From contig JAKPOP010000003.1 of NCBI GenBank assembly GCA_029547805.1, positions 62,001 to 126,000 of the forward strand: a stretch of DNA of 64,000 nucleotides. The letters are read 5' to 3'. Positions 2,888-25,600 of this stretch are shown here, piece by piece. The notes under the pieces were generated by a model. The model ran no database searches and was not told where the DNA came from. It saw only the letters and a program-made list of their open reading frames with translations. Source of the stretch: Deltaproteobacteria bacterium (GTDB lineage: Bacteria > Myxococcota_A > UBA9042 > DTJE01). How positions within the stretch are numbered: position 1 is the first letter of the stretch; each line of letters opens with the position of its first letter. A program made the position numbers and the translations under genes.

Positions 2888-4345
2888 ATGAACCGGGCCT
2901 GGGTCGCGACATGGTGTCTGGTGGTGGCCCTGGCACCCGGGGCCTGCTCCACCGACGGGTCGCACCGCAGGCCCCCTCCCCTCTCGTGCACGCCCTTCTG
3001 CCAGGACCGCGCCTGCGGGGAGGACGGGTGCGGAGCGACCTGCGGTTCCTGCCCGGATGGGACCTTCTGCGAGCCCTTCCAGGGGCAGTGCCTCTCGGGG
3101 TCCGGGGGGGTTCTGACCGGGTCCCTGGGGCTGCTGCACCGACCTGGCCGGCTGCTCCCCGACGGAGGAGTCGAACTGGACGATCCCCGATGGATCGGGG
3201 CCCTGGGAGCAACACTGGTGGTCACGACGGCCGATGGCGAGGTGATCGGCGGCGGAGAGGTGTCGTCTCGGGACGGGGACTTCCGGGTGACGACCGCCCG
3301 TCGGGTCCGGGCGGGGGATCGGCTCGTGATCACCACGTGGTGGGCCCCCCGAGGCACGGTGGTGCTGGCGGTGTTGCGGCCGCCACCGGGGGAATTCCAC
3401 GAGTCCACGCCCCTGGCACCCTGGTCCTGGGTGGTGGAGACGGAGGGTCGGGAGAACCTGGGAGACCTGACCATCTCGGAGTCCGAGGGATCCGGCGCGC
3501 TCTACCTCTTCCTGCTGGCCCGACAGGTCCAGCAGTCGGTGCTGGACTCGGTGCTGTCGGGGGATGCCCTTCCCCTGGTGCGCCTTGGGGTGGTCTGGGG
3601 ACCCGGAACCGTGTTCCACTGTGGGGCCTGCTTCGCATCGACCCTGGGCTTTCCCATGGAGGGCGGTCCCGAGATGCTCCAGAGCGTCCTGATCGGTGAC
3701 GACCCGGCCATGGGCGGTCCCTGGGCCTGGCCGGTGCTGCTGCACGAGATGGGGCACTATGTCGCCCAGAACTACAGCCGCGACGACTCCCCCGGGGGGA
3801 GCCACTTCCTGGGACAGAAACTGCCGCCGGCCTTTGCCTGGTCCGAGGGGTGGGCCTCCTTCTTCGGGGCGTTGATCGCGTCGGAATGGGCCGGAGAGCC
3901 GCGGCCATACTATTGGGACATCCAGGGCAGCGACTCCTTCTGGATCGATTACGAGAATGGCCTGGTGAACGGCACCTCGACTGTCCGGCCGCCGGTCCCC
4001 GCCCAGGGCCAGAACCAGGAACTGGACGAGACCTGGGTGACCCATTTCCTCTGGCATCTCCGGGCCGAACAGGGCCATGCGGGAACGTCCGGCGGACTCT
4101 ATGACGACGCGACCCTGCTATGGACCTTCGGGTCGAAGCGGATGAAGAACATGGACCGGGCCGGCGCCGGCACCGATCTGGTGGATTTCCTGGATGCCCT
4201 GGCCTGTCGGGATCGCGAGGGCACCGGCCTGCTCACGTCCTTTGCCCAGGAGGAGATGGGCTTCCCCTGGGACGGCGATCCCTCCTGCCCCACGGCGGTC
4301 GCCAGCACGCCGGCCCCCGGGACTTCCCAGGAGCCAACCCCGTGA
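2888..4345 (+). CDS. Lipoprotein with HExxH zinc metallopeptidase-like domain
   Basis: 485 residues. The N-terminus has a lipoprotein signal ending APGAC, with Cys20 as the lipidation site, followed by a short Cys-rich segment (CGEDGCGATCGSC) typical of secreted deltaproteobacterial proteins. A beta-rich middle region leads to HEMGH at residues 286-290 and a downstream EGWASFF with Glu320, the spacing expected of a gluzincin-type zinc site (two His plus a Glu about 30 residues later). I infer a surface or periplasmic zinc peptidase; the substrate is unknown. The ATG at 2888 follows GGAGG at good distance. The stop overlaps the GTG of the next gene (GTGA), so the two are likely co-translated. 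The peptidase assignment rests on the zinc motif, not on an overall family match. Confidence 0.75.
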   Translation: MNRAWVATWCLVVALAPGACSTDGSHRRPPPLSCTPFCQDRACGEDGCGATCGSCPDGTFCEPFQGQCLSGSGGVLTGSLGLLHRPGRLLPDGGVELDDPRWIGALGATLVVTTADGEVIGGGEVSSRDGDFRVTTARRVRAGDRLVITTWWAPRGTVVLAVLRPPPGEFHESTPLAPWSWVVETEGRENLGDLTISESEGSGALYLFLLARQVQQSVLDSVLSGDALPLVRLGVVWGPGTVFHCGACFASTLGFPMEGGPEMLQSVLIGDDPAMGGPWAWPVLLHEMGHYVAQNYSRDDSPGGSHFLGQKLPPAFAWSEGWASFFGALIASEWAGEPRPYYWDIQGSDSFWIDYENGLVNGTSTVRPPVPAQGQNQELDETWVTHFLWHLRAEQGHAGTSGGLYDDATLLWTFGSKRMKNMDRAGAGTDLVDFLDALACRDREGTGLLTSFAQEEMGFPWDGDPSCPTAVASTPAPGTSQEPTP

Positions 4346-5637
4346 GGATGCCCCGCAGTGCGATGCTGCTCCTGGCCCTGGGTCTGGTGGCGGCCAGCCA
4401 GTCCGGCAACCTGGTCCGGATTGCCGACGCCCACCCGCTGGTGATCGCCGGCTGGCGCCTGCTGCTGGCGGCCCTCGTGATGATTCCCATCACCGGGTCC
4501 CGGGTCGGGGACCTCCGGCGGATCCCGACGCCCCGGGTGGCGGAGGCCCTCCTGGCGGGGATCGCCCTGGGGGCCCACCTGGTGGCCTGGATCGCGGCCG
4601 TCCAGCGGACAACCGTGGCCAACGCGGCGACCTTCTTCTGCATCAATCCCCTGCTGACCGCCCTGGCGGCCCGGTTCTTCCTGGGGGAGCGGGTCAATTC
4701 CCGTCTGGGGGTCTCGATTGCCCTGGGTCTGGCGGGTGTCCTCACGATGGGGATCCATGACATGCGTCTCTCCCCGGAACACCTGGAAGGCGACGCGCTG
4801 GCGATCCTCTGTTCCGCCCTCTTCACGGTCTATCTGCTGGCCGGAAGGCGGGTCCGAGCCGTCGTGGACAACCGGGTCTATGTCCTGGTGCTCTATGGGG
4901 TTGCGGGGATCGGGACCCTCGCCGTCGCTGCGGCGGGAGGCCTTCCGTGGCTCGACGGGACGCCCCGGAACTGGCTCGCCTACGGGCTGCTGGCACTGGT
5001 GCCCACCTTGCTCGGGCATACCTTCCTGAACCACTCCCTGCGGTGGCTCTCGGCGGCCCGTCTGTCGGTGCTGACCCTCACGGAGCCGGCCTTCGCGGGG
5101 GTCGTGGCGTGGCTGGCCTGGGGGGAGGCGGTGCCCCTGAGCACCCTCGGGGGATACGGGCTGATCGCCCTCTCGGTCGTGGTGCTGTTGTGGGACGTCC
5201 TGCGGCCGGATCGGAGGCCTCCGGTACGCCTCCGTGGACATCACCTGGGATGCACCGCGGGCTTCACGGGGCATGGCTACGACTCCCCGTTCACGGCGAC
5301 CCTGGCCCGGATCGCCGGAGTCCTGGAACGGGATCCGGACCATCCCATCGTGGTGGTTCCGGGCGCCGATGACGTCTGCGAACCGTGTCCGCACCTCCAG
5401 GCGGGCGCCTGCGCCCGGGACCCCCAGGCGGAGGTCCGGGTGCAGGTCCACGACCGGGAGTTCCTCGAGGCCCTGGGGCTGCAGGTCGGCGACCGGACCA
5501 CTCCCCGGGAGGTCTCCCGTCGACTGGAACGGGATCCACAGGCCCGGGAACGCATTCTGCGGGCGTGCGCAACGTGCCCATGGACCACGGTCTGCGCCTT
5601 TCACCACCGATGGGAACGCTCGGAAACCGCCTCGTGA
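4342..5637 (+). CDS. EamA-family transporter fused to a DUF1284 domain
   Basis: 431 residues from the GTG at 4342, which overlaps the previous stop by 4 bases; an ATG at 4348 is an alternative. Residues 1 to about 290 form a ten-helix drug/metabolite transporter of the EamA type, with hydrophobic segments and paired repeats (for example AALVMIPITG, FLNHSLRWLSAARLSVLTLT and a final LIALSVVVLLWDVL). Directly after, residues 295-431 carry a soluble domain starting VRLRGHHLGC and containing CEPCPHLQAGAC and CATCPWTTVC, which matches the DUF1284 family (RGHHL start, paired Cys motifs, possible metal site). No stop or start signal separates the two parts. EamA proteins export amino acids, metabolites or drugs; DUF1284 has no established role. 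The fusion places the Cys-rich domain at the cytoplasmic or periplasmic C-terminus of the transporter. Confidence 0.85.
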   Translation: MRMPRSAMLLLALGLVAASQSGNLVRIADAHPLVIAGWRLLLAALVMIPITGSRVGDLRRIPTPRVAEALLAGIALGAHLVAWIAAVQRTTVANAATFFCINPLLTALAARFFLGERVNSRLGVSIALGLAGVLTMGIHDMRLSPEHLEGDALAILCSALFTVYLLAGRRVRAVVDNRVYVLVLYGVAGIGTLAVAAAGGLPWLDGTPRNWLAYGLLALVPTLLGHTFLNHSLRWLSAARLSVLTLTEPAFAGVVAWLAWGEAVPLSTLGGYGLIALSVVVLLWDVLRPDRRPPVRLRGHHLGCTAGFTGHGYDSPFTATLARIAGVLERDPDHPIVVVPGADDVCEPCPHLQAGACARDPQAEVRVQVHDREFLEALGLQVGDRTTPREVSRRLERDPQARERILRACATCPWTTVCAFHHRWERSETAS

Positions 5638-5763: not shown

Positions 5764-7839
5764 ATGAAGGTCTATGAATCCGGTCAGATCCGCAACGTCG
5801 GACTGTATGGGCACCAGGGAACGGGCAAGACCACCGTCGCCGAGGCGATGGTCTTCCTGGGGAAGGCCGTGACCCGGCTCTGCAGCGTCGTGGACGGCAA
5901 CTCCAACTTCGACTACGACCCGGACGAGGTCCGACGGAAGTCGTCGATGTCCACCGCCGTGGGCTACGGCGAGTGGAATCGGTGCCTGGTCAACGTCGTG
6001 GACACTCCCGGGGACTCCAACTTCGCCGCCGAGACCGTCATGAGCCTCGCGGCCACGGACATCGGCGTCCTGGTCGTCAGCGCGGTGGACGGGGTGCAGG
6101 TGGGGACCGAGAAGGCCTTCGAACTGCTCGAACAGTCGGGGCAGCCGGCCATCCTGATGGTCACCAAGATCGACAAGGAACGGGCCGATTTCCAGAAGAT
6201 CCTGGCCCAACTGCAGGAGACCTTCGGCAACTCGGTGGTCCCCATCGCCTTGCCCATCGGCAGCGAGTCCTCCTTCGGCGGGGTCGTGGACCTGTTGTCG
6301 ATGGAGGCCCGGACCTACTCCGGGGGTCTCCAGGGCCAGAAGGGCGAGATTCCTCCGGCCATGAAGGACGCCGTGGCCTCCGCCCGGGAGGTCCTGGTGG
6401 AGAAACTGGCCGAGCAGGACGACGACCTGATGATGAAGTACCTGGACGGCGGCCAGCTGAGCCAGGACGATCTCAAGACCTGCCTCCAGAAGGGACTGCG
6501 ATCCCGGGGGATCTTCCCGGTGCTGGTCTGCAATGCCTCGACCGGTGTCGGCGTGGACCTCCTGATGGACCTGGTGACCCTCCATGGTCCGAGTCCCCTG
6601 GAGCGGACCAACTACCGGGTCGTGAAGGACGGGACCGAGACGCCGGTGGAGGTCGCCACCTCGGCATCCTTCCTCGGCTACGTCTTCAAGACGGCCGTGG
6701 ACGTCCAGACGGGGCGAATCACGATCCTGCGGGTGATCACGGGCACGGTGCCCGCCGAAGGCTTCCAGAACCTGGACACGGGGACCCGGGAGCGGTTCGG
6801 TGGATTCGTGAAGCTCCTGGGGAAGAAGACCGAGCCCATCGACCAGGCGGTCTGCGGGGACATCGTGGCCGTCGTGAAGCTCAAGGACACCCGGACCGGC
6901 AACACGCTGGCGGCCGACGCCGGTGCCGGCCGACTGGTGACGGTCCCCCTGCCCGAGCCCTGCATCTCCTACGCGGTGAAGCCCCGGTCCCAGGGAGACG
7001 AGGACAAGGTGTCCGCGGCCATCCAGCGTCTGGTGGAGGAGGACGTCGGGCTGCGCCTGGCCCGGGACGAGGAGAGCAAGGAGTTCCTGCTCCACGGCCT
7101 GGGCCAGAGCCACATCCAGAACGCCGTGGAGAAGCTGAAGCGCAAGTTCGGCGTGGACGTCGAGATGAAACTGCCCCGGATTCCCTATCGGGAGACCATC
7201 CGCGGGTCGGCCAAGATGGTCGAGGGCAAGCACAAGAAACAGACCGGAGGTCGCGGCCAGTTCGGTGTCTGCTACATCGACATGGAGCCCCTGCCCCGAG
7301 GCGAGGGATTCGTCTTCGAGGACGCCATCTTCGGAGGCGCCATTCCCCGGCAGTTCATCCCCGCCGTGGAGAAGGGAATCCGAGAGGCGGCGGCCCGGGG
7401 CGTCCTGGCGGGCTACCCGGTCATCGACTTCAAGGTCCGTCTGGTGGACGGAAAGTACCACGACGTGGACTCCGACTCCCGGTCGTTCGAGATGGCGGGA
7501 TCCCGGGGCTTCAAGGCTGCCTTCAAGTTGTGCCGCCCGACGATCCTCGAGCCCATCATGAACGTGACCATCGTCATCCCCGAGGAGTGCCTCGGGGACA
7601 TCATGGGCGACATCTCGGCCCGGCGGGGTCGCATCCAGGGGACCGAGGCGCGGAACAAGTTCCAGGTCGTGAAGGCGAACATCCCGATGTCCGAGATGCA
7701 GACCTACGCGTCGGACCTCCGTTCGATGACGTCGGACCGGGGCACCTTCACGATGGAGGTCTCCCACTACGAGGAGATGCCCCAGAACCTCGTGGACAAG
7801 TTGATCCAGGAGGCCCAGATCGAGGAAGAGGAGGAATAG
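5764..7839 (+). CDS. fusA: EF-G-like translational GTPase (atypical paralogue)
   Basis: 691 residues, full length for elongation factor G. The GTPase domain has a P-loop GHQGTGKT (residues 16-23), DTPG (80-83) and TKID (134-137), followed by EF-G domains II to V; domain IV contains the run around KKQTGGRGQFG. Two departures from canonical EF-G are visible. The His after DTPG that promotes GTP hydrolysis is Asp here (DTPGDSNF), and the NKxD base-recognition motif is TKID. Both features are known in the FusA2-like group, whose members are not the main translocase. I therefore infer a paralogue with a regulatory or stress role rather than the housekeeping factor. The ATG at 5764 follows AAGGAGG about 10 bases upstream; in-frame codons further upstream encode no EF-G sequence. 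Confidence 0.9.
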   Translation: MKVYESGQIRNVGLYGHQGTGKTTVAEAMVFLGKAVTRLCSVVDGNSNFDYDPDEVRRKSSMSTAVGYGEWNRCLVNVVDTPGDSNFAAETVMSLAATDIGVLVVSAVDGVQVGTEKAFELLEQSGQPAILMVTKIDKERADFQKILAQLQETFGNSVVPIALPIGSESSFGGVVDLLSMEARTYSGGLQGQKGEIPPAMKDAVASAREVLVEKLAEQDDDLMMKYLDGGQLSQDDLKTCLQKGLRSRGIFPVLVCNASTGVGVDLLMDLVTLHGPSPLERTNYRVVKDGTETPVEVATSASFLGYVFKTAVDVQTGRITILRVITGTVPAEGFQNLDTGTRERFGGFVKLLGKKTEPIDQAVCGDIVAVVKLKDTRTGNTLAADAGAGRLVTVPLPEPCISYAVKPRSQGDEDKVSAAIQRLVEEDVGLRLARDEESKEFLLHGLGQSHIQNAVEKLKRKFGVDVEMKLPRIPYRETIRGSAKMVEGKHKKQTGGRGQFGVCYIDMEPLPRGEGFVFEDAIFGGAIPRQFIPAVEKGIREAAARGVLAGYPVIDFKVRLVDGKYHDVDSDSRSFEMAGSRGFKAAFKLCRPTILEPIMNVTIVIPEECLGDIMGDISARRGRIQGTEARNKFQVVKANIPMSEMQTYASDLRSMTSDRGTFTMEVSHYEEMPQNLVDKLIQEAQIEEEEE

Positions 7840-11861: not shown

Positions 11862-14800
11862 CTAGAGGGCCCGGAGGAGGGCCTTGGCCTCGGCGTTCTC
11901 CGGCTCCTCGGCCAGAACCCGGAGGACGAACTGGCGGGCCTTCCGGGGGTCCCCTCCTGCGATGTGGATCCGGGCCAGGGACAGCAGTACGTCCACCCGG
12001 ATGCCACGCTCCAGGGAATCCAGTCGAAGCAGCAGAGGCTGGTAGACCCGCAACGCCCCGGCATGGTCCTTTCTGGCCAGCAGCAGGCGCCCCAGTGCAA
12101 GGGCGTTTGGAAGGTGGCCCGAGTCGTGTTCCCAGGCCAGGCGGTGGGACTGGATCGCCCGCTCCGTCTCCCCCATCGCCTCCAGGATGCGCCCCAGTTC
12201 GTAGGCATACGGCGGGATCTCCCGGTAGCGCTTCTTGCCCTCGAGCCAGTTCACCAGCCACTCCAGGTAGGGAACGGCCCGGTGAGGCTCCCGGGACTGA
12301 AGGTGGTATCGGACGATGCCCCCGACCACCCGAGAATTGTCCCGCTGGAATCGGTGGGCCTCCTCGGCCCATTGGAGGAAGCGGGCGCCGTTGTTGAGTT
12401 CCTGGAGGTAGATCTCGGCGATGTCCATGCAGAGCGAGGCGCGCTGCTCGTCGGTCTGGGCCGCCTTCAATTCCCGGGTCAGCAATTCGATGAGGGGCTG
12501 CCACTGCCCTGCCTCCTGGTAGAGGCGTTTGAGCAGTTGAAGCGCCTCCTGGTCCGCCGGCCGGGCATGGACCACCTCCTGCAGGGCCGAGATGACCTCG
12601 GGGCCTCGCTGACCCCGGGCGCTTCGAATGCGCACGCTCCCCAGCAGGGCCTGAATCCGGTCGTCCCCTTTCGGGACCAGGCTCATCAGCCGCTCGTAGA
12701 GGGTCAGGGCCTCGTCGTGCTGCCCCTGGCTTTCCTGCCACCGGGCCATCACCAGGAGCGCCCCCGGGTGGTTCGGGTCCACCTGGAGCACCTGTTGGGC
12801 GAGGGCCCCGGCCAGGGAATGGTCCCCCAGGCGTTGCAACGTGATCTCGGCCGCCTGCAACAGCATCGGGACCTGTTCCGCAGGGTTGGGCAACAACGAG
12901 GCCTTCCGGCGAAGGGCCTGGATCAGGGCCGTCCACTCCTCGGCGCGATAGTGAAGGCGGATGGCCTCGTCCAGCAGGGAGACGTCGTCCGGGTCGACGG
13001 TCATCGCCCTTCGGATCGAGGCGATGGCTGCCGGGAGGTTTTCCAGGTGGGTCTCCTGGATGGCCGCCGTCCGGGTCAGCAACTCGACCTTCCGGTCAGG
13101 ATTCTCCTCGCTCTCGACCTGTTCCTGGAGCATTCGGACCAGGGACTCCCAGTCGCCGATGTCTTCGTAGAGCCGTTCCAACCGCAGGAATGCCGCCCCG
13201 TTGTCCGGCTCGATCGTGAGGACCTTCTCCAGCAATGCAACGGCGGCCATCCGGTCCCCGAGGTCGTTCTCTTGGATGCTCGCCGCCTCCAGCAGGCAGG
13301 AGACGGCCTGGTCCCCGGTCCCCAGGGCGTCCGCGAGACTCTCCAGGGACCGGACCAGCACCGCCGGGTCCCCGACCACGCGGGCCAGGCGGACCGTTTC
13401 CGCAAGGACCTCTGGAGACGCCTCGTGGGTCGCCCGCTCCTCCTGGAGTTCGAAGGCTCGCCGGGTCTCTCCCTGTTCCTCGGCGAGTCGGGCGAGCCTC
13501 CCCAGGGTCTGGGCCCGTTCCTCGGGGGTCAGGTTCAGGCGGAGGCGCTTCTCCAGGACCTCGACCAGTTGCCGCGTCAGGCCCTGTCGCTCATAGAGCG
13601 CCTCCAGCCCGTCCAGTGCCTCCCGACAGACGGGGTCCAGTTCCAGAATCCGGGTGAGGGCCAGTTCCAGGTCGTCGGCGGGGACGTCGCCCTGGGGGGC
13701 GATGCCGGCGGCCTGCAGCAGCAGGGACTTTTCGAGTTCCGGCCACGAGGCATTTCGGGCCGCCCGAACGAGGTAGCCGAAGGCGTTCCGGTAGTGGCCG
13801 CCACGTCGTGTGGCCTTCAACAGCGAGAGGAGAACCTGCTCATCGGCCGGTGCAAGGGCGAGGGCCTTGCCCAGGTGCTCCACCTCCACCGCGGAGGACC
13901 CCAGGCGATGGGCCGCCGCTGCCGCCTCCTCGTGCAACGACACCACGTCGTCCGATTCCCCGGCCCGGCCCATGATGGTCTCGAGCACCCAGAGCAGCCC
14001 CTTCGAGTCTTCCGAGGCCCGGAATGCCTCCCGGAGGATCTCGAGGGCCCGATCCCCGGCCAGGGGGTCCGAGGTCATCGTCGAGAGGAGCCGAATCGCC
14101 TCTTCCTGCCGAGGATCCCGGGCCAGGACCCGAGCCAGTTCCTCGACGATCTCCTCCGAGTCGCCTCCAATCTGGGACAGGAGGGAGGCCAGGCGAAGGC
14201 GCAGATCGACGGGGGCGTCGCTCCCGGCGGCCTGGATGCGTCGTCGGAGCACCCGGAGCATTCCTTCCTGGTGCCCGAGGGTCCCGTAGATTCGTTCCAG
14301 TCGCCCGAGGACCTCCTCGTCCGAGGTCCCGTCCCCAATGATCCCCTCCAACACCTCTGCGGCTCGCGCCGGGAGGGCCATCGCCCCTTCGAGGGCATCG
14401 GCCGCCACCAGCAGGATCCCCCGGCACTCGGCCGGGGAGGAGTGGGCCGCAGCCACCTCCGTCAGCATCTCCACGAGGACGTCGGGGATCCGGGCCTCGT
14501 CGGCAATCCGGACGGCCTGTTGCAAGGCCTCCGAATGACCCGGAACCTCCGTCAGCAGACGCCCCAGTGCCAGGAGGCCCTTCCGGGGGTCCCCCAGGGC
14601 CGAGTTCCAGAGGTCCGCCAGACGAAGCAGGAGGCCCTCCCGCTCGGGTCCGGCCGCGAGCATCTCCACCTGCCGCTCCAGCACCCGTGCGAGGCCCTCG
14701 TGGTCTCCGACGTGGGCCAGGGCCTCTTCCAACACCAACGCAGCCTCGAGGCCCACCGCCGGAGAGTCGACCAGGTGCCACAGCACGTCCGGGGCCTCGG

Positions 14801-17800
14801 GCAGGAAGGGATCGAGTTCCAACGCGGCCTTCAGGTGCTCCAGGGCCTCGACCTCCCGGCCCAGGAAACGCGCCTGGATCGTCCCGATCCGGAGGTTCAG
14901 CGCGGCCCGATCCTTGGCGCCGTCCACGTGGGGAAGGCGCTGGTGGAACAGGGCCACCATGCCTTCGAAGTCCTGTTCCGCCTCCAGCAGCTCGGACATT
15001 CGCTCGAAGGCGAAGTCGTTCCCCGGGTCCTGGTCCAGGATCCGCCGGAGCAGACGCCGGGCCCCCTCGCCATCCCCCATCCGGCCCTGCCGCAGTCCGA
15101 CGGCCTTCTTGAGCAGCAGGATGGAGGCATCGCCCGCCTCCACGGCGGCCTGCTTCTCGTAGACCTCCGCCAGGTCCTCCCACTGCTCGCCGGAGAGCAT
15201 CCACTGCTCCAGGAGGGACCATGCCTCCAGGCACCGGGGGTCCTCTTCCAGGAGTCGTCGAAGCGTCGCCTGGGCCCCCTGGGAGTCCCCCAGAGGGGCC
15301 TGCTGGAGTCGGGCCAGTTCCAAAGCCAGGGAACGCTTCTCGGCCTGGGACTCTGCCACGTCCCACTTGCGGGACAGCCAGGTCGCAAGGGCCTGGTGAT
15401 CCCCCCCCTCCCGGGCCATGGATTCCAGGCCGTCCAAAGCCGCCCGGTTCCCCGGGTCCAGGTCCAGGATCCGTTGAAGGACCCGCTCGGTTCCCCGGGC
15501 ATCCCGAAGCCGGAGCCGGAGGATGTCCTGGACCTTGAACAGGATCGCCAGTCGCTGTTCCGGTGATTCCAGGCGCTCCGCCACGTCCTCCCACAGGATC
15601 GCCAGTTCCCCGAAACGGCCCAGCCGCTGGAGCAGGTCGGCCAGGCGTTCCCGCACCGCGAGGTCGTCGGGACGGACCTGGTTCGCGACCTTCAGGGAAT
15701 CCGCCGCGGCCTCCAGGTCCTGCCGGTCCTCCTCGTGGAGTCGAGCCAGCTCCAGGGCCACCTGGAACGCCTCGTCCTGGCCTTCCAGGCGCAACAGGCA
15801 GTCCTCCAGCGCGGACCGGTAGCCCTCCAGGGCCCCGGAACGCCGCGCCGCCATCTCCAGTCGGCCTCTCAACGCCGCGTCCCCTGGGCGGATCTTCAGG
15901 AGTTCCGACAGGTCTTCGACCAGGAGGTCGTCCCTCCCCTGCCCTTCCTCGATCTCCACCGCCCAGGAAAGCGCCTCTTCCCGAGATGGGAAGGGGCGAT
16001 CGAGGGCCGCGGTGAACCGGTAGAGGTCGAGAAGCATCTCCGATGCGCCGATGCGCTGGGCCGCTGCCACCAGTGCGGTGAAGACCTCCGGTGGGCCGTC
16101 GAAGGCGCCGTAGATGCTCCTGGCGACGTCCAGGTCCGCGGGATCGGGACCGGGGCGTTCCAGCAGGGCCAGGGCCGCCTCCGTGGCCTCGTCGCCCAGG
16201 CCCAGCGCCTCGGTGGTCGCCGCGATCCTCCGCCGGATCTCCCAGACCTCGGGGTCTTCGGCCGAGCCTCCCTGTCTCAGCAGCAGGCCAAGACGATGGC
16301 GGTCCAGCCGGAGACGATCGCCCGGATCCCCCAGGGCCAGGGCCAGGCCCTCCAGGTGGTCCAGTGCCTCGGGATGGTCCGGCTGGATGGCCAGGACCTC
16401 CCACCAGCAGTCCCAGGCCCGTCTGGCGTCTCCCGCTCCCTCCTCGGCGAGCCGCGCCGCCCGCTGCCACAAGTGCAACCGCTCCCCGGGATCCGGGGTC
16501 TCCCGGGCCAGGACCTCCAGCAGCGGAAGGCACTCTCCACTCCGTCCTTCCTGTTCGAGGACCTCCAACCAGACGCGCAGCGTCTCCGTATCCCCGGGCC
16601 AATCCTGCACGTTCCGTTCGAAGAGTCCGATGGCCGGTTCCAGGAAGCCCATTCGGGCCAGTTCCCGCGCCCCGATCCGCCTCACCCGGGAGCGGGCCGA
16701 AAGGTCGCTCTGCGAGATCGCGATCTCCTCGGTCCAGGCCTCCAGGGACAGTGGTTCGCCTCCTTCTCGCAGCAATGCCGCCAGGGACGCGACCACCTGC
16801 TCGTTCTCGGGCCAGCGAAGCCACGTCTGCCGGAGGACCTGGACGGCGGCCTCCCCTTCTCCGCTCCGCTTCAGGGCGTCGGCCAGTTCCAGGTTCAGTT
16901 CCGGGACCTCCGAGGGGTTCTCGCAGCGCTCGACCAGCACCCGGAGGGCCCGGACCAGCCGGCGATGGTCCCCGGTCTTCCGGGATGCCCAACGCAGCTG
17001 GCGAGCCGCTTCCATTCCCCCCGGAAGGGATTCCGTGAGGACCTCCAATCGGTCCAGGGCCGGTTCGAAGGACGGCAACATGTCCATCACCGCCTTGAGG
17101 TCCCTCAAGGCGTCCACGAACCCGATCTCCCCGGCCCCCAGGAAGAAGTCGGCGCGCTCGACCAGTGCCGCCGCCTTTCCTTCCGGGTCCCTGGCCAGGT
17201 CGATCTGCTGCTGGAGCATGCGCAGGAGGCGATCCCGGTCCCGCCGTTCGACGGCAATGGACTTGGCCTCCTGCCAGGCCTCATGGTCCTCCGGGAACGA
17301 CTCGAGAATCCGGTCGAAGACCCGGGCCGCCTCCTCGGGTTCCCGGAGGACGTCCCGGAAGGTCCTGGCCGCCTCCAGGAGGTGGTCCCTCCGCTCCTCG
17401 GGCAGCGCCGACGTCCCACCGATCAGCAGATGGACCTCCAGGGCCTCCCGGGTCTTTCCGAGGCTCCCCAGGAGGCTGATCAGCCGATGGGCCGCCTCCA
17501 GTGCCAGCGGGTCCAGGGAGTCTTCCTCGGGGCGACGATCGAGGACGTAGCGGAAGGAACGGGTCGCCTGTTCAAAATCCCCCTTGGCCTGGCACAGGAC
17601 CCCCAGGGTCTCCTGGATCCGCCTCCGCTCGTCGGTCTGTGAGGCCAGAGCAGCCATTTCGGTCAGCAGGGGAATCCGGTCGGCGTCCTTTCCCTGTTCC
17701 CGAAGGAGGTCGTCCACCTCCCGGAGGACCTCCAGGGATCCGGGCTGCAGTTCCAGCAGGCGGCGGTAGATCGTCTCGGCGCGGCCGATGTCCCCCTGGC

Positions 17801-20800
17801 GGGTTCGCCAGAGACGGGCCGCCTTGAGGAGCAGGTGCGTCCGACCCTCCAACCGAGCGGTCCCGGCAATCTCCTCCAGCAGGCGCAGCACTTCCTGGGG
17901 GCGATCGAGGGCCTCGCCGATCCGGATCAGGCGATCGGCGATCTCCGGGTCCTCGGGAACGGCCCGAAGGGCCTCAGAGACGTGGTGGAGGGCCGCTTCC
18001 AGGTCCCCCTGGGCCTCGGTCACGTCGGCCATGGCCACGCAGGCCCGCACCCGTTCCCAGGGACTGGCGGCCAGTTCGGCCTCGGCCTGCAGCACCTGGA
18101 GCAGCAGTGCATCGGCCCCGGACCGGTCCCGGAGGGCCTCCTCGAGGAATCCCAGCAGGGACGGCGCCCACTCCCGCCACCCGGGGAGCCCCCGAGAGGT
18201 TGCGACCCCGACGACCTCCGCCACGAGGGACTCCTGGGCCGGGTCCTCGGTGATGGCCTTCCGGTAGACCTCGGCCGCCTCGGCCCACTGCCCCAGGGAG
18301 CCTCCCAGAATGCGGGCCGCCCGGACCTGGACCGCGCTCCGGGCCTCCGGCGCCTGGACCCACTCCTCCCTGCGCCGCAGCAGGTCCAGCAGTTCCCGGT
18401 GCCTCCCCTGACCCCCGAGGATCTCCTCGACCTGGTCCGCCGCCTCCTCGTCGGGACCCAGGTCCAGGACCCGCATCCAGGCCTCCAGAGCGCCCTGCAG
18501 GTTTCCCTGCATCCGGGTCCAGCGGGCCCGGTCCGACAGGACCTTCCGGCGTCGGACCGGATCCTCGGTGATCTCGGCCAGGCGGTCGAAGGTCCTCAGA
18601 ACCGCTCCCTCATCGCCCATCTGCTGGTAGAGGTCCAGGAGGCGCAGCAGGAGCCCCTCCTCCTCTTCGGCGAAGGGAAGGGCCTTTTCCAGGGCCTTGA
18701 TGGCCAGGTCCCGTTGTCCCAGTTTCTCCCCGTACAGCTCTCCCAGCAGGAGGGCGTACTTCGACTCCAGGGCCGGGTCCGGGATGGTCCCTTCCCCCAG
18801 GGGGATCCCCGGCGGGAGGACACCCACCCACCGCCCCAGCGTGACCGCCACGTCCCGGTGACGACCCGTGCGGTCGGCCAGTTCCCGGAACCGCTGGACC
18901 CACGGCTCCGCCGGATGACGCATCACAGCGGCCATCACCAGTTTGAAGGCCCCCTCCGGGTCCTCCTTCCCGTGCTCCCGGAGGTCGGCCATCTCCATCA
19001 GCAGCGCCGCCGCGGCCTCCGGGCGAATCATGTCCTCCAGACGCGCCTGGAGCAGGTCCAGCAGGTCATCGGTCCGACCCTGGCTCCGGAGGAATGGCGC
19101 CATCAGGTTGGCGGCGGCATCCCGTGCCAGCCGGCGGTCGAAGAGGATGCGCAGTTGTCGCAGGGCCTCCGCCGAGTGCCCCTCCGAGTGCAGCGCCTCC
19201 TCCAGGAGACGGAGGGCGTCGTCCACCGCGTCCAGGCGTTCCCAGCAGATCTGCGCCAGTTCACAGGAGAGACGTCCCTTCTGCCAGGGCGTATCGGCGA
19301 TGGCGAGTTCCATCCGGATGATGTCCGACAGGTCCAGGAACCGCTCGAGGCGCTCATAGGTCCGGTGCAGGCCTGCCAGGGCCTCCGCGTCCTTCGGGTT
19401 CCCCTGGAGGATGTCCCGGTAGCAGTCCGCCGCGGCGGCGTCGTCCATCAGGAGGTCCTCGTAGAGGCGTCCCAGGCGCATCCGGATGTCCCGGGCATCC
19501 CGGTCGTCCCGGCAGACGTCCAGGCGGCGGCGCAGCACGAACTCCAGGGCCTTCCAGTCCTCTTGCTGGGAGGCGATCTCCTCCAGCAGGTTCAGGGCCT
19601 CCGGGTCTCCCGGCTCCAGGTCCAGGACCCGTTCGAGCACGGCCCTGGCCTCGTCGTGGAACAGGAGCCGCTCCTTGAGCAGCCGGCCCAGTTCCAGCAG
19701 GACACCCTGACGCACCTCGTGATCCATCGTCGCGTCGGCCAGTTCCCGCAGGAGGGAACCGTACTCCTGCCACAGCCCTCCCCGTTGGACCAGCAGGCGT
19801 ACCTGTTCCAGCGTCTCCGGGACCCGATCCAGCGCCAGGGCGTTCCGGACGGCCTCCTCCCCGGCCCGGAAGGCCCCCGGGAGGTCCCCGGACTGCCCCA
19901 GGGTCTCCATGAGCCGGGACCAGAGGGTCCACCGCTCCTCGGCGTCGGGAAGATTGGGTGCCAGCGCCGGGATGATCGTCGCGATGCGCTCCCGGTCGCC
20001 CTGGGCCTCGTAGAGGTGGAGGAGTTTGCGCCCCACGTCCGTCAGCGTGGGATCCCCCAGAAAGGCCTTTTCCAGGAACCGGACGGCCCGATCCTCCTCC
20101 CCGAGGTCCTCCTCGCAGACCTGTGCCAGGGTCAGGTTCAGGGCCACCCGCCGCAGGGGATCGGTCTCCCGGGACTCGGCCTGGATCAGGAGGCCCAGGA
20201 GGCTTCGGGGGTCCTGTCGGGCGAGGTACATCCGCCGGAGCGCCGGAAAATCATCGGCGTTCAGATAGATCTGCTCCAGGCGACGGACGGCCACCTCGTC
20301 CTCCGGATCCACCGCCAGGGCCTGCTCGAACAGCAGGCGGGCTCCCGGGACATCCCCGAGTCGTTCCAGGCAGATCTCTCCACACTTGTGAAGCAGTTCC
20401 AGCCGGCGCCGGACAGGCATTGGACGGTCCACTTCCTCCCGGAGGAAGCGGACGTAGTCCTCCCAGCGTTCCTGCCGGATGTAGAGCTGATGCAGGCTCT
20501 CCCGGGCCTCCCGGAGCCGGGGGTTCTGGCGATAGAGTTCCTCGAACAGGCGCAGGGACTCGTCGAACCGCAACAGACGATCCCGGGCCATCGTCGCCGC
20601 GGCCAGGAGGACCGGCTCCCGATCGGCGCCCTGGAGGAGGTTCGCCTCCCTCAGCAGCACCTGGAAGAGTTTCTCGGGACTGTGCTTCCGCTGGTAGATC
20701 GCCTTCAGGCGCTGGATCACCTCGAGTTGCTGCGGATCGATCTCGAGGATCCGTTCCAGGAACGGAACCGCCTGGGCCTCGTTGGACATCCGGGTGAGGG

Positions 20801-22430
20801 CGATGTCCGCGATCTGCCGCAGCAGATCCAGGAGCACCTCTCGGTCGGAGGTCACCTGGGCCTTCTTTTGAAGCACCTTCAGGAGGTCGTGCCACCGTTC
20901 CTTCTCCCGGTACCCCCGCACCAGGGTCTCCAGGGCCTCGGGATGATCCGGCTGCACTTCCAGGATGCGGGCCCAGGTCGCCAGGACATTGTCGGGGCTG
21001 GGGAGCCGATCGGGGTCCTCAAAGATCCGGATGACCTGTCGCAGACAGGCGACCTTCTCCTCGACGGCCTCGGTGGGAAGCTGACGGACCCGCTCGTTGT
21101 AGAACTCCAGCAAGGCGTGCCACTTCCGGGTCCGCTCGTAGAGGGACACGAGGGCCGCCTCGGCCTCCCGGTCCATGGGGTTTCCGGCCAGGATGCGCTT
21201 CCAGGCCTCGATGGCCCGCTCCGGGGACTGGAGGTGCTCCTCGGCGATCTCGGCCATCGTCCGATTCACCCGGTAGCGTTCCTGGGGGTCCTCCAGCACC
21301 GACAGCAGGAACTGAAGCGTCGTGAACAGTGTCTGGTAGTCCCCCCGGTTCCGGTGGAACTCCTCATAGAACCGCAGGGCTTCGATGTTTCGCGGGTCGA
21401 CGGCCCGAAGACGTCGCCAGGTCCGCTCGGCGTCCACGTCCCGCCCCGCAGCGGTCTGGGCCCGGGCCAGGATCGGGAGGAGTCGTGCCTCGTCGCTGGA
21501 ACCGGCCAGGGATGCCCGACGCTGTTCCAGTTCCTTCAGGGCCTCCTGTTCGCGCCCCAGTTGCTTCAGGGCCTCCAGGCGTTGCTGGAGGGCTGCCGGG
21601 TGGGCCCGGTCGTGGGTCAGGGCCTCCAGTGCCGTCTCGGCGGCCCGTTCCGGGAGCCCGAGGACCTCCCGCTGGACCCGGGCCAGCTCGGACAGCACCG
21701 CGGCCCGGAGCGGCGCATCGAGGCGTTCCAGGTCCGTGCGGAAACGCCCCTCGATCTCGGATGTGCGTCCCAGGGCCTCGCAGGCCTGGACCACGAGGTG
21801 CAGGGCCAGGAGGTCCCCAGGGGCCTCCTGGAGGTGCTGGTCCAGGAACCCCAGTGCCGTCTCGGCCCCGCTGGGGTCTTCCAGCATCCGTCGCGCCTCG
21901 GACAGCCGATCGCGTTGCCGGGCCTGCTCCCGGAGTCGGGCGTCCCGTTCCCGATGGGCCTCGGCAATCCTGGCTTCGTAGCGGTGACGCATCTCGCCGT
22001 CGGCCAGGGCGGCCAGCACCCGCCAGAGGTGCAGCCGCGTCTCCTCGTCCTGGCCCGACTCCAGGGGCTCCGCCAGGGCGGCCAGGGCGACGGGATTGAG
22101 GGACCGGACCGCCGCCACGACCCGCGCCTGCTCGGCGGTCTCGGGGTCCTGGAGGTCGCTCCGATAGATGTCCGCGGCCACCGAGGCCAGATGGCCGGCA
22201 ATGGGATCCTGGGAGGCCGAGGCCCATCGGACCAGGAGGTCGGCCATCAGGCGTGTCCAGGCCGCCAGTTCCCCCCGTTCCTCGGCCACCTGGGCCCGCT
22301 CGGCGATGGACTGGAGGGCACGGGTCAGGTCCGCGCGCCCCAGTTCCCCGAGGACCCGTTCCAGGGCCTCCAGGGTTCGTCTTCCGGAAGTGACGTCCTC
22401 CAGCAGCCGGCCCAGTTCGTCGATGTCCAT
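11862..22430 (-). CDS. Giant tetratricopeptide-repeat protein, 3,522 residues
   Basis: One uninterrupted frame of 3,523 codons from the ATG at 22430, which follows GAGGAG. Almost the entire chain is made of 34-40 residue helical repeats with the TPR pattern: aromatic or Leu at position 4, Gly/Ala at 8, Ala at 20 and Pro near 32 (for example AIEAWKRILAGNPMDREAEA, and AVRFLEKAFLGDPTLTDVG). Leu, Glu and Arg dominate. There is no signal peptide, membrane segment or enzymatic domain, so I infer a very long cytoplasmic superhelix acting as a scaffold. Giant TPR proteins of this size occur in Myxococcota, but I cannot name an orthologue. It is transcribed divergently from dnaE and is the upstream neighbour of the proline dehydrogenase gene. 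The last residues (NAEAKALLRAL) complete a repeat, so the end looks natural. Confidence 0.93.
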   Translation of the reverse strand: MDIDELGRLLEDVTSGRRTLEALERVLGELGRADLTRALQSIAERAQVAEERGELAAWTRLMADLLVRWASASQDPIAGHLASVAADIYRSDLQDPETAEQARVVAAVRSLNPVALAALAEPLESGQDEETRLHLWRVLAALADGEMRHRYEARIAEAHRERDARLREQARQRDRLSEARRMLEDPSGAETALGFLDQHLQEAPGDLLALHLVVQACEALGRTSEIEGRFRTDLERLDAPLRAAVLSELARVQREVLGLPERAAETALEALTHDRAHPAALQQRLEALKQLGREQEALKELEQRRASLAGSSDEARLLPILARAQTAAGRDVDAERTWRRLRAVDPRNIEALRFYEEFHRNRGDYQTLFTTLQFLLSVLEDPQERYRVNRTMAEIAEEHLQSPERAIEAWKRILAGNPMDREAEAALVSLYERTRKWHALLEFYNERVRQLPTEAVEEKVACLRQVIRIFEDPDRLPSPDNVLATWARILEVQPDHPEALETLVRGYREKERWHDLLKVLQKKAQVTSDREVLLDLLRQIADIALTRMSNEAQAVPFLERILEIDPQQLEVIQRLKAIYQRKHSPEKLFQVLLREANLLQGADREPVLLAAATMARDRLLRFDESLRLFEELYRQNPRLREARESLHQLYIRQERWEDYVRFLREEVDRPMPVRRRLELLHKCGEICLERLGDVPGARLLFEQALAVDPEDEVAVRRLEQIYLNADDFPALRRMYLARQDPRSLLGLLIQAESRETDPLRRVALNLTLAQVCEEDLGEEDRAVRFLEKAFLGDPTLTDVGRKLLHLYEAQGDRERIATIIPALAPNLPDAEERWTLWSRLMETLGQSGDLPGAFRAGEEAVRNALALDRVPETLEQVRLLVQRGGLWQEYGSLLRELADATMDHEVRQGVLLELGRLLKERLLFHDEARAVLERVLDLEPGDPEALNLLEEIASQQEDWKALEFVLRRRLDVCRDDRDARDIRMRLGRLYEDLLMDDAAAADCYRDILQGNPKDAEALAGLHRTYERLERFLDLSDIIRMELAIADTPWQKGRLSCELAQICWERLDAVDDALRLLEEALHSEGHSAEALRQLRILFDRRLARDAAANLMAPFLRSQGRTDDLLDLLQARLEDMIRPEAAAALLMEMADLREHGKEDPEGAFKLVMAAVMRHPAEPWVQRFRELADRTGRHRDVAVTLGRWVGVLPPGIPLGEGTIPDPALESKYALLLGELYGEKLGQRDLAIKALEKALPFAEEEEGLLLRLLDLYQQMGDEGAVLRTFDRLAEITEDPVRRRKVLSDRARWTRMQGNLQGALEAWMRVLDLGPDEEAADQVEEILGGQGRHRELLDLLRRREEWVQAPEARSAVQVRAARILGGSLGQWAEAAEVYRKAITEDPAQESLVAEVVGVATSRGLPGWREWAPSLLGFLEEALRDRSGADALLLQVLQAEAELAASPWERVRACVAMADVTEAQGDLEAALHHVSEALRAVPEDPEIADRLIRIGEALDRPQEVLRLLEEIAGTARLEGRTHLLLKAARLWRTRQGDIGRAETIYRRLLELQPGSLEVLREVDDLLREQGKDADRIPLLTEMAALASQTDERRRIQETLGVLCQAKGDFEQATRSFRYVLDRRPEEDSLDPLALEAAHRLISLLGSLGKTREALEVHLLIGGTSALPEERRDHLLEAARTFRDVLREPEEAARVFDRILESFPEDHEAWQEAKSIAVERRDRDRLLRMLQQQIDLARDPEGKAAALVERADFFLGAGEIGFVDALRDLKAVMDMLPSFEPALDRLEVLTESLPGGMEAARQLRWASRKTGDHRRLVRALRVLVERCENPSEVPELNLELADALKRSGEGEAAVQVLRQTWLRWPENEQVVASLAALLREGGEPLSLEAWTEEIAISQSDLSARSRVRRIGARELARMGFLEPAIGLFERNVQDWPGDTETLRVWLEVLEQEGRSGECLPLLEVLARETPDPGERLHLWQRAARLAEEGAGDARRAWDCWWEVLAIQPDHPEALDHLEGLALALGDPGDRLRLDRHRLGLLLRQGGSAEDPEVWEIRRRIAATTEALGLGDEATEAALALLERPGPDPADLDVARSIYGAFDGPPEVFTALVAAAQRIGASEMLLDLYRFTAALDRPFPSREEALSWAVEIEEGQGRDDLLVEDLSELLKIRPGDAALRGRLEMAARRSGALEGYRSALEDCLLRLEGQDEAFQVALELARLHEEDRQDLEAAADSLKVANQVRPDDLAVRERLADLLQRLGRFGELAILWEDVAERLESPEQRLAILFKVQDILRLRLRDARGTERVLQRILDLDPGNRAALDGLESMAREGGDHQALATWLSRKWDVAESQAEKRSLALELARLQQAPLGDSQGAQATLRRLLEEDPRCLEAWSLLEQWMLSGEQWEDLAEVYEKQAAVEAGDASILLLKKAVGLRQGRMGDGEGARRLLRRILDQDPGNDFAFERMSELLEAEQDFEGMVALFHQRLPHVDGAKDRAALNLRIGTIQARFLGREVEALEHLKAALELDPFLPEAPDVLWHLVDSPAVGLEAALVLEEALAHVGDHEGLARVLERQVEMLAAGPEREGLLLRLADLWNSALGDPRKGLLALGRLLTEVPGHSEALQQAVRIADEARIPDVLVEMLTEVAAAHSSPAECRGILLVAADALEGAMALPARAAEVLEGIIGDGTSDEEVLGRLERIYGTLGHQEGMLRVLRRRIQAAGSDAPVDLRLRLASLLSQIGGDSEEIVEELARVLARDPRQEEAIRLLSTMTSDPLAGDRALEILREAFRASEDSKGLLWVLETIMGRAGESDDVVSLHEEAAAAAHRLGSSAVEVEHLGKALALAPADEQVLLSLLKATRRGGHYRNAFGYLVRAARNASWPELEKSLLLQAAGIAPQGDVPADDLELALTRILELDPVCREALDGLEALYERQGLTRQLVEVLEKRLRLNLTPEERAQTLGRLARLAEEQGETRRAFELQEERATHEASPEVLAETVRLARVVGDPAVLVRSLESLADALGTGDQAVSCLLEAASIQENDLGDRMAAVALLEKVLTIEPDNGAAFLRLERLYEDIGDWESLVRMLQEQVESEENPDRKVELLTRTAAIQETHLENLPAAIASIRRAMTVDPDDVSLLDEAIRLHYRAEEWTALIQALRRKASLLPNPAEQVPMLLQAAEITLQRLGDHSLAGALAQQVLQVDPNHPGALLVMARWQESQGQHDEALTLYERLMSLVPKGDDRIQALLGSVRIRSARGQRGPEVISALQEVVHARPADQEALQLLKRLYQEAGQWQPLIELLTRELKAAQTDEQRASLCMDIAEIYLQELNNGARFLQWAEEAHRFQRDNSRVVGGIVRYHLQSREPHRAVPYLEWLVNWLEGKKRYREIPPYAYELGRILEAMGETERAIQSHRLAWEHDSGHLPNALALGRLLLARKDHAGALRVYQPLLLRLDSLERGIRVDVLLSLARIHIAGGDPRKARQFVLRVLAEEPENAEAKALLRAL

Positions 22431-22477
22431 GCTCTCCTCGCGAGGGTCGCCACGGGACAACGGTTCCAGTCGCCTCC

Positions 22478-22506
22478 CTTTTACATCAGGGCCGGGAAGG
22501 TCGCAA
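22478..22506 (-). promoter_or_regulatory. Promoter candidate for the giant TPR gene
   Basis: Minus strand: TTGCGA, 17 bases, TAAAAG. Predicted start near 22471, about 40 bases before the ATG at 22430. It is the most AT-rich spot in this 259-base intergenic region. Confidence 0.4.
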
Positions 22507-22573
22507 GGAAGCCCCGACCTCCCCCGAACGAAGGGAAAGGCTCGGCCGCACCGGGAAGTGCGCGCCCCTTCTC

Positions 22574-22594
22574 CCTGTCGGAGGATTCGACAGG
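22574..22594. repeat. Inverted repeat between the giant TPR gene and dnaE
   Basis: CCTGTCG and CGACAGG form a perfect 7-base inverted repeat around a 7-base centre. It lies 17 bases upstream of the dnaE -35 and between the two divergent promoters. It could be an operator or a short hairpin; it has AAAA just downstream on the plus strand. No regulator can be assigned. Confidence 0.4.
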
Positions 22595-22611
22595 AAAATG
22601 CGCCACGCCAC

Positions 22612-22639
22612 TTGCCATGTCCTCGGCCCTTGGTAGGCT
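22612..22639 (+). promoter_or_regulatory. Promoter for dnaE
   Basis: TTGCCA, 16 bases, TAGGCT. Predicted start near 22646 gives a leader of about 45 bases before the ATG at 22690. The -10 differs by one base from the recurrent TAGACT. Confidence 0.55.
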
Positions 22640-22689
22640 CGGGCTCGGCCCGGTGCATGCCGGGCCAAATCGCCCCGGGAGGGAAGACC

Positions 22690-25600
22690 ATGGATTTCGT
22701 CCACCTGCACGTCCACTCGCAGTTCAGCCTCCTCGACAGCACGATCCGGATCCCCGACCTCGCTCGTCGGGTGGCCTCCCTGGGGATGCAGGCGGTGGCC
22801 CTGACGGACCACATGAACCTCTTCGGAGCGGTCCAGTTTCACAAGGCCTGTACCAAGAACCAGCTGCCCGTGATCGGGCCCGACGGGAAGCCGGTCCTGA
22901 TCGATGGGGACAAGGAGCAGACGGTCCCGGCCCCCGTGAACGACATCATCGGGGCGGAGGTCCTCGTGGAAGGTGCCCAGGGAAGCGCTCCGGGACACCT
23001 GGTGCTTCTCTGCCGGAACCAGGAGGGCTACCGGAATCTTCGATCACTGATCTCGGAGGCCTGGCTTCGCCGGGAGCGTGTTCCCGACGCGGAGGTCTTC
23101 CTGGGACGACAGGCGCTGGCGGAGCATGCCCGCGGACTCATTGCCCTTTCGGGTTGTCTGGGAGGGGAGATCCCCCAGTGCATCCTCCGGGGCGAGGACC
23201 GAAGCGCCCTCGCGGCGGCCGGGTGGTACCGGGACGTCTTCGGCGCCGACTCCTTCTATCTGGAGGTCCAGTCCAACGACCTGGCCGAGCAGCACGCGGT
23301 GAATCGGGCCCTGGTCGCCCTCTCGGAGGAGACGGGCATTCCCCTGGTGGCGACCAGCAATGCCCACTATCTGGACCGGAAGGATGCGGTGGCCCAGGCG
23401 GTGCTGACGGCCATCGAGATGCGGCGCACCCTCTCCCCGGATCGGCTCCGGGAACTCCCGGTGGACACGTTTCACCTGGCCTCTCCCCAGGAGATGGCCC
23501 GGCGTTTCGAGGACCTGCCCGAGGCCCTGGCCAATACCGTCCGGATCGCCAGCATGGTCGAGCCGAACGTCATGGGCCTCCGGGGCGAAAAGGACATGGT
23601 GTATCACTTCCCCATCTTCGTGCCTCCCGAGGGCCGCACCGTCCCGGACCATTTCCGGGAGGTCGCACGGGAAGGGCTCGAGAGGCGCCTGCAGGAGATC
23701 CGGCGAGAAGGACGCCGCATCGACGAGGAAACCTATCGGCAACGCCTCGAATACGAGATGGAGATGATCATCCAGATGGGGTTCGACGCCTACTATCTGG
23801 TGGTCCAGGACTTCATCCGATGGGCCCGGGACCATGGCGTCCCGGTGGGTCCGGGGCGGGGGTCCGGGGCGGGGTCCCTGGCGGCCTGGACGATGGGCAT
23901 CACCCAGCTGGACCCGCTGCGCTACGACCTGCTCTTCGAGCGATTCCTCAATCCGGAGCGGGTGAATCCCCCGGACTTCGACGTGGACTTCTGTGAAGTC
24001 GGGCGGGAGCGGGTGATCGAGTACGTCACCGAGAAGTACGGTCGCGAGCAGGTGGGGCAGATCATCACCTTCAACGCGATGAAGGCCCGGGCCGCAGTCC
24101 GGGACGTCTGCCGTGTGCTGGGGTTGTCGTTCCAGCAGGGGGACGTCCTCGCGAAACTGATCCCCGAACAACTCGACATGACGCTGAAAAAGGCCTGGGA
24201 GGCCGAGTCGCGGATCCGCGAACTGGTGGAGGGAGATCCGGTCTATCGTGCAGTCTGGGACGTTGCGTTGCGCCTGGAGGGACTGGCCCGTCAGCCCGGG
24301 AAGCACGCGGCAGGGGTCGTCATCGCCGACCGGCCCATCGGGGACCACGTGCCCCTCTACGTGACCGATGACCACAGTCGCGTGACCCAGTTCAACATGA
24401 AGGACATCGAGGCCGTTGGCCTGATCAAGTTCGACTTCCTGGGACTGACCGCCCTCACGGTGATGGATCACGCCGTCCGCATGATCCGGGAACGGGGGCA
24501 CCCGGACTTCGACCTGGAGACCATCCCGCTGGACGACCCGACGACCTTCCAGGTCATCTCCTCCGGGGCCACTGCCGGGATCTTCCAGTTGGAGACCGCC
24601 GGGATCACCCGGCTCGTCCGTCGCCTCCGACCCGACCGCCTGGAGGACATCATCGCCACCATCGCCCTCTATCGACCCGGACCCCTGGGTGCAGGGATGG
24701 TGGACCAGTTCATCGCCGTGAAGCACGGCGAGCGAGAGCCGGAATACCTGGTCCCGGAACTGGAGCCCATCCTTCGGGACACCTACGGCACGATGCTCTA
24801 CCAGGAACAGATCATGTTGATCGCGCGGAACCTGGGGGGATTCACGATGGGAGGGGCCGACCTCCTGCGCCGCGCGATGGGAAAGAAGGACTCTTCCCTG
24901 GCGCGACAGCAGGAAGAACCGTTCCTGCAGGGAGCCGCCCAGCGCGGGATCGACCCGGAGAAAGCCCGGACGCTGTTCGAAAAGATGATGAAGTTCGCGG
25001 AGTATGGCTTCAACAAGAGCCATAGCACGGCCTATGCCTACGTGTCCTACCGGATGGCCTACCTGAAGGCCCACTACCCGACGGAGTTCCTCTGTGCGGT
25101 GCTGACCTCGGAGCAGGGCGACCAGGACAAGACCATGCGCTTCGTCCACGAGGCCCACCGCATGGGGGTGCAGGTGCTCCCGCCGGACGTGCGGCACTCC
25201 GCGGCGCACTTCACCGTCGAGGACATTCCGACGCCTTCCGGCATCGTGTCGGCCATCCGGTTCGGCCTGGCCGGCATCAAGGGCATCGGCAACGCCGCGG
25301 TGGAGGCCATCCTCGAGGCACGTGCGAGGGAGCCGTTCCGTTCCCTGGGGGACTTCCTGTCCCGGGTCGACGGGCGCAAGGTCAACAAGCGGGTCCTGGA
25401 GGCCCTCATCCGTGCCGGGGCCCTGGACGGGTTCGGCCATACCCGCCGGTCCCTGGAGGAAGGGCTCGATGCCCTGCTCTCCCGGGTCACCCGGCTCCGC
25501 GCGGACCAGAGCCAGGGGCAGGCGGGCCTCTTCGACCTCCCGTCCACCTCCTCGGTGCCCGACGTCGCACCGCCCCCAGTGCCCGAGTGGCCCGACCACG

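Follow-up and report, generated by a model that had tools for sequence, protein, structure and literature searches.

Our findings suggest that DUF1284, a protein family that is widespread in archaea and bacteria without an assigned role, acts in the uptake or salvage of biotin. We hypothesize, with a probability of about 0.55, that it is a soluble cytoplasmic protein of this pathway, most likely a metal protein, and that it has become tethered to an EamA carrier in the species examined here. The recurrent linkage to bioY and birA, together with the BioR boxes, points to a concrete pathway that can be tested, and it should be of relevance for organisms that depend on scavenged biotin, including the rumen methanogens. 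The species that provided the window, i.e., the whole stretch of 64,000 nucleotides that was analyzed, is an uncultured, myxobacterium-like bacterium, and partner genes of DUF1284 for biotin uptake are seen in many distant microbes. Literature searches for DUF1284 or COG3543 by name, and for BioY in combination with iron-sulfur and biotin salvage, gave no paper in the literature collection searched, in which we also could not find a previous link between DUF1284 and the biotin pathway.

One reading frame for an EamA carrier and a DUF1284 domain

The fused gene extends on the plus strand from a GTG at position 4342 to a TGA at position 5637. A sequence-only reading of the window had described it as a complete EamA transporter that runs without a break into a complete DUF1284 domain, and this description holds, since the frame is open over 431 amino acids and both parts pass their Pfam cut-offs. 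The carrier part (residues 1-288; positions 4342-5205) matches PF00892 in two stretches (5.4e-30; 104.9 bits versus a cut-off of 28.2) and has ten hydrophobic peaks, corresponding to ten transmembrane helices. It thereby shares the two EamA repeats and the fold of the DMT superfamily, but differs from other members in bearing a soluble, C-terminal domain with Cys and His residues. A short linker (5206-5223), recognized in the alignment with the sister species (G001), leads to the complete DUF1284 domain, which together with the stop codon covers positions 5224-5637, as supported by Pfam, an alignment of 88 members and AlphaFold2. Residues 312-418 match positions 1-102 of the 102 in the PF06935 profile (7.2e-19; 72.0 bits versus a cut-off of 25).

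This domain is the sole DUF1284 copy of the 4.08-Mb draft genome. Whereas it contains all the invariant residues of the family, it differs from PF06935 proteins in general by being attached to a membrane transporter as its C-terminal part, and by having no start of its own; no ATG, GTG or TTG is left near the beginning of the domain in the fused frame, the nearest being located within the last transmembrane helix. Both parts are well folded in the AlphaFold2 model of the whole chain (mean pLDDT 92.6, pTM 0.82), with a pLDDT of 93.7 for the DUF1284 domain. The model of the carrier part resembles the PDB structure 5i20 (TMt 0.81), which we take to be YddG, as well as the choline importer LicB (7paf; 0.82), and because both of these match, the fold is uninformative about the direction of transport. 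The distribution of lysine and arginine residues, considered along with the ten hydrophobic peaks, suggests that both ends of the carrier, and hence the DUF1284 domain, are located on the cytoplasmic side.

The GTG start of the fused frame shares the nucleotides GTGA (4342-4345) with the stop of the preceding gene (3197-4345, plus strand), which from its sequence encodes a secreted protein with a HEMGH motif. The two genes are probably on the same transcript, and the HEMGH gene also precedes EamA in G001, G008 and G011. A gene for an EF-G-type GTPase, identified by Pfam and by conserved synteny, follows downstream (5764-7839, plus strand); it serves as a synteny anchor and presumably does not belong to the system. 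Elsewhere in the window, the minus strand contains a very long open frame of 3650 amino acids (11862-22814) with an ATG start and TPR-like repeats.

Origin of the fusion

In the sister species, which is the only other searched genome of the genus, EamA and DUF1284 are separate genes with a four-nucleotide overlap (ATGA), such that the EamA protein ends with GDST and the ATG of DUF1284 overlaps the stop that follows. The identity to the fused protein is 86% for EamA and 71% for DUF1284. About 119 nucleotides of the G001 junction, comprising the tail of EamA, its stop, the start of DUF1284 and most of a leader of 30 residues, are absent from the window, and EamA and DUF1284 therefore share one frame; this difference between the two species is unpolarized by an outgroup, and the members of genus g5 also have a separate DUF1284 gene with an ATG start.

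Since a block of about 119 nucleotides distinguishes the two species, a one-base frameshift is ruled out as the cause of the fusion, and a reading error that joined two separate genes, an objection raised in the sequence-only reading itself, is unlikely. We also considered the possibility that the fusion is an artefact of a draft assembly and that EamA and DUF1284 are in truth two genes, like those of the sister species. The genome is indeed a draft and no second genome with the fusion was present among those searched, but what is missing is a whole block instead of one or two bases, the locus is otherwise colinear and the coding frame is undamaged on either side, all of which makes this explanation very improbable. 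The fusion is thus real and apparently species-specific: a search for the same two-domain architecture recovered it from the species of the window only, among the genomes searched, and no fusion of a carrier to DUF1284 was found on plasmids. That the two families might be neither adjacent nor fused in any other genome, another doubt of the initial reading, is contradicted by the overlapping genes in the sister species and by two further species in which EamA and DUF1284 are located in one neighborhood; a DMT-type carrier of another kind also precedes DUF1284 in one Bacillota locus (L056).

In genus g5 (G011, G012), DUF1284 is preceded at a distance of 2.7 kb by an EamA orthologue (54-56% identity) in the same orientation; in G011, an acetyltransferase gene on the opposite strand is located between the two. 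The gene directly before DUF1284 in this genus overlaps it by ATGA; an identification of that gene as DUF2891 was discarded for want of a Pfam match. EamA and the downstream EF-G gene are present in G008, from which DUF1284 is absent. Furthermore, EamA orthologues with 47-51% identity in two other families (G080, G177, G214, G251) are not accompanied by DUF1284, and no biotin genes were found next to them upon inspection by eye. Because the g5 pair shares a neighborhood and the orthologues in other families are without DUF1284, we conclude that EamA and DUF1284 became neighbors in an ancestor within the family of the window and are fused in one species.

Both halves of the gene have been under purifying selection since the separation from the sister species (NG86 dN/dS of 0.094/0.509 for EamA and 0.198/0.683 for DUF1284), and the two are tightly coupled in both species of the genus, which argues against a purely incidental fusion, in which a near-neutral deletion joined unrelated neighbors and the tethered DUF1284 would keep its biotin-related work while the cargo of EamA had nothing to do with it. 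We nevertheless give this alternative only slightly less than an even chance, considering that one species alone carries the fusion, that other genes separate the pair in g5, that EamA orthologues occur with neither DUF1284 nor biotin neighbors, and that BioY has been retained in the genome of the window.

The sequence-only reading had taken the fusion as a strong hint that DUF1284 senses, binds or modifies what the transporter moves. An association with transporters is real, but the recurrent partner is BioY, for biotin, and not EamA. "Strong" was an overstatement, and the fusion on its own provides a weak hint, because it is a single event in one species, the genes were already adjacent in the genus and 2.7 kb apart in g5, and EamA in other families is found without DUF1284. 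By itself, the fusion is a one-species curiosity, though a ready-made construct.

Biotin genes beside stand-alone DUF1284

DUF1284 normally stands alone, as had been assumed from the start, and the context of these stand-alone genes is much more informative than the fusion. A scan of 84,980 genomes (GTDB, one genome per species) with an alignment as the query yielded 554 DUF1284 relatives, whereas a single-sequence query against the same collection gave none. We analyzed the best 80 of the 554, a sample that is biased toward the members most similar to that of the window. In 31 of these 80 loci, representing about eight phyla, the gene for BioY, a component of the biotin ECF transporter, is located no more than 3 kb from DUF1284. 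The distance is less than 300 nucleotides in 26 cases, less than 1 kb in one case and about 2.6 kb in the remaining four, where genes for the ECF ATPase/T components intervene. The linked taxa include Methanobrevibacter, Clostridia, Paenibacillus and kin, Chloroflexota, Omnitrophota, the candidate division TA06, Parcubacteria, Alphaproteobacteria and Myxococcota, while most loci in the Bacilli have no biotin neighbor. A crude estimate of the probability of 31 links in 80 loci by chance is 1e-59, a value inflated by relatedness, of which the spread across phyla is independent.

According to Pfam, the 53 upstream neighbors on the same strand include 20 BioY proteins, three biotin ligases and four ECF ATPase/CbiQ proteins, and BioY was identified downstream in two more cases. 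In two loci (L039, L045) the gene order is birA - DUF1284 - bioY, with the start of DUF1284 overlapping the stop of birA by four nucleotides. Likewise, in the family of the window, G007 has bioY followed by DUF1284, and G006 has birA, bioY and a convergent DUF1284 in a row. We consider it well supported by gene order that the recurrent linkage to bioY, birA and ecf genes in distant lineages ties the DUF1284 family to biotin uptake or salvage.

Several individual loci deserve mention. The order bioY - DUF1284 - ATP-grasp (PF02655) is conserved in seven Methanobrevibacter loci (L055, L061, L068, L070, L077, L097, L098). A contig assigned to a Clostridia bacterium (L040) encodes a BioY protein that shares 98% identity with the BioY of Methanobrevibacter L070, and the contig is probably archaeal and misbinned. 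In a Bacillota MAG (L056), an EmrE/EamA-like DMT carrier (PF13536; 6925-7881), unlike the EamA of the window, is encoded about 120 nucleotides upstream of DUF1284.

The genes are arranged in the order GntR gene - bioY - DUF1284, with a four-nucleotide overlap, on plasmids of Rhodovulum sp. MB263 and Agrobacterium vitis. An exact TTATCTATAA is located just 5' of bioY in Rhodovulum (L149:4402-4411) and likewise in A. vitis; the regulator genes of both loci are classified as GntR-type only. The A. vitis locus (L150) has two such boxes (3651-3660 and 4393-4402), one before bioY and the other before the GntR gene, and no further exact copies were found within each 10-kb stretch. The sequence TTATCTATAA occurs in BioR probes (PMC4554459). 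The BioR-regulated operon in Paracoccus denitrificans similarly has a GntR-type gene adjoining bioY and TTATCTATAA boxes, but there bioY is followed by a bioB gene, bioB2 (PMC4554459), whereas the two plasmids have DUF1284 in this position.

Because DUF1284 replaces bioB behind bioY in operons with GntR genes and BioR boxes, and its hosts are mostly without a biotin synthase, it could be the catalyst of an undescribed step in biotin salvage, with a metal centre that acts on an imported vitamer; the protein in the window would then be a natural fusion of carrier and enzyme, in which EamA passes this vitamer on to the tethered domain. We regard this more specific version as improbable. In one tested set of 50 DUF1284 genomes, BioB exceeded the cut-off in 12, all of which are Bacilli according to their record titles. 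BioY was present in all 50, which is a weak argument because BioY is common in such lineages; the argument is the adjacency. DUF1284 is not always accompanied by BioY, as shown by eight DUF1284 genomes without it in the phylum of the window. At least three BioY-less genomes (G004, G027, G059) contain BioB, and G004 has both BioB and BioD. A gene of the GH57 branching-enzyme type is followed by bioY, and mostly thereafter by asd, in the family of the window (L137, L138, L145-L148), and in the BioY-less G004 (L018) and G010 (L013) it is DUF1284 that overlaps the GH57 gene, at the position of bioY in the relatives.

Possible roles of the DUF1284 domain and the carrier

The 88 aligned DUF1284 proteins have in common the pattern R-x-H-H-x2-C, G-x-G-Y, D, C, a later C, D and C-x2-C-x-W. 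The RGHHL start and the cysteine motifs pointed out in the sequence-only reading are present in the domain of the window, where all of the invariant or nearly invariant residues are kept. An additional cysteine, the second of the first C-x2-C, is also retained, although it has been replaced in many Bacilli. The pattern of Cys and His residues suggests a metal or Fe-S site, in agreement with the earlier proposal of a metal or redox centre at the cysteines, which is plausible. A fold search against the PDB and viral models gave no match to the domain.

The DUF1284 protein would thus be a small, soluble, cytoplasmic partner of biotin uptake, most likely with a metal (probably Fe-S or Zn), which, once biotin or one of its precursors has been imported, handles, modifies or senses that compound; that it acts on or senses such a compound inside the cell is what we consider most likely. 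In most genomes it is encoded by a separate gene, often in apparent translational coupling to bioY or birA. In the lineage of the window, the gene came to stand behind that of an EamA carrier, and with loss of the stop/start junction in this single species the DUF1284 domain would have become tethered to the C-terminus of the carrier, at the inner face of the membrane.

Another possibility is that DUF1284 has a sensing or regulatory function instead of a catalytic one, for instance as a subunit that switches the importer in response to redox state or biotin. The coupling or fusion to transporters, the invariant Cys and His residues, and the occurrence both with and without BioB and BioY would fit such a role. 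We consider it rather unlikely, since the domain does not match a known DNA-binding family or fold, the place of the regulator in the alphaproteobacterial operons is already taken by the GntR gene, and DUF1284 stands alone in many Bacilli.

For the EamA part, the relevant comparison is with BioP/YigM, an EamA-family biotin transporter in E. coli. The two belong to the same superfamily and have TIGR00950 as their best NCBIfam match, but the score is 65.1 bits for the EamA of the window and 309.9 for BioP, relative to a cut-off of 230.2, and BLASTP gave no significant similarity between them (E 0.18 over 47 residues). By these tests, the carrier is not a BioP orthologue. Likewise, it is not a replacement for BioY in the genome of the window, where BioY is retained. 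Since EamA also has no biotin context elsewhere, the step to a biotin carrier is weak, and that it moves biotin or a related compound is a tentative idea with the odds against it.

The genome of the window encodes BirA, and BioY in the order GH57-bioY-asd. No BioD was found, nor any BioB over the cut-off, and with BioY and BirA present the organism looks like a biotin auxotroph. The best match to BioB proved to be HydE, and the paired copy in the sister species HydG. The H-cluster maturases of the HydE and HydG types, located at G000:C8 (L126) and G001:C90 (L127, L136), point to the probable production of an [FeFe] hydrogenase by the organism.
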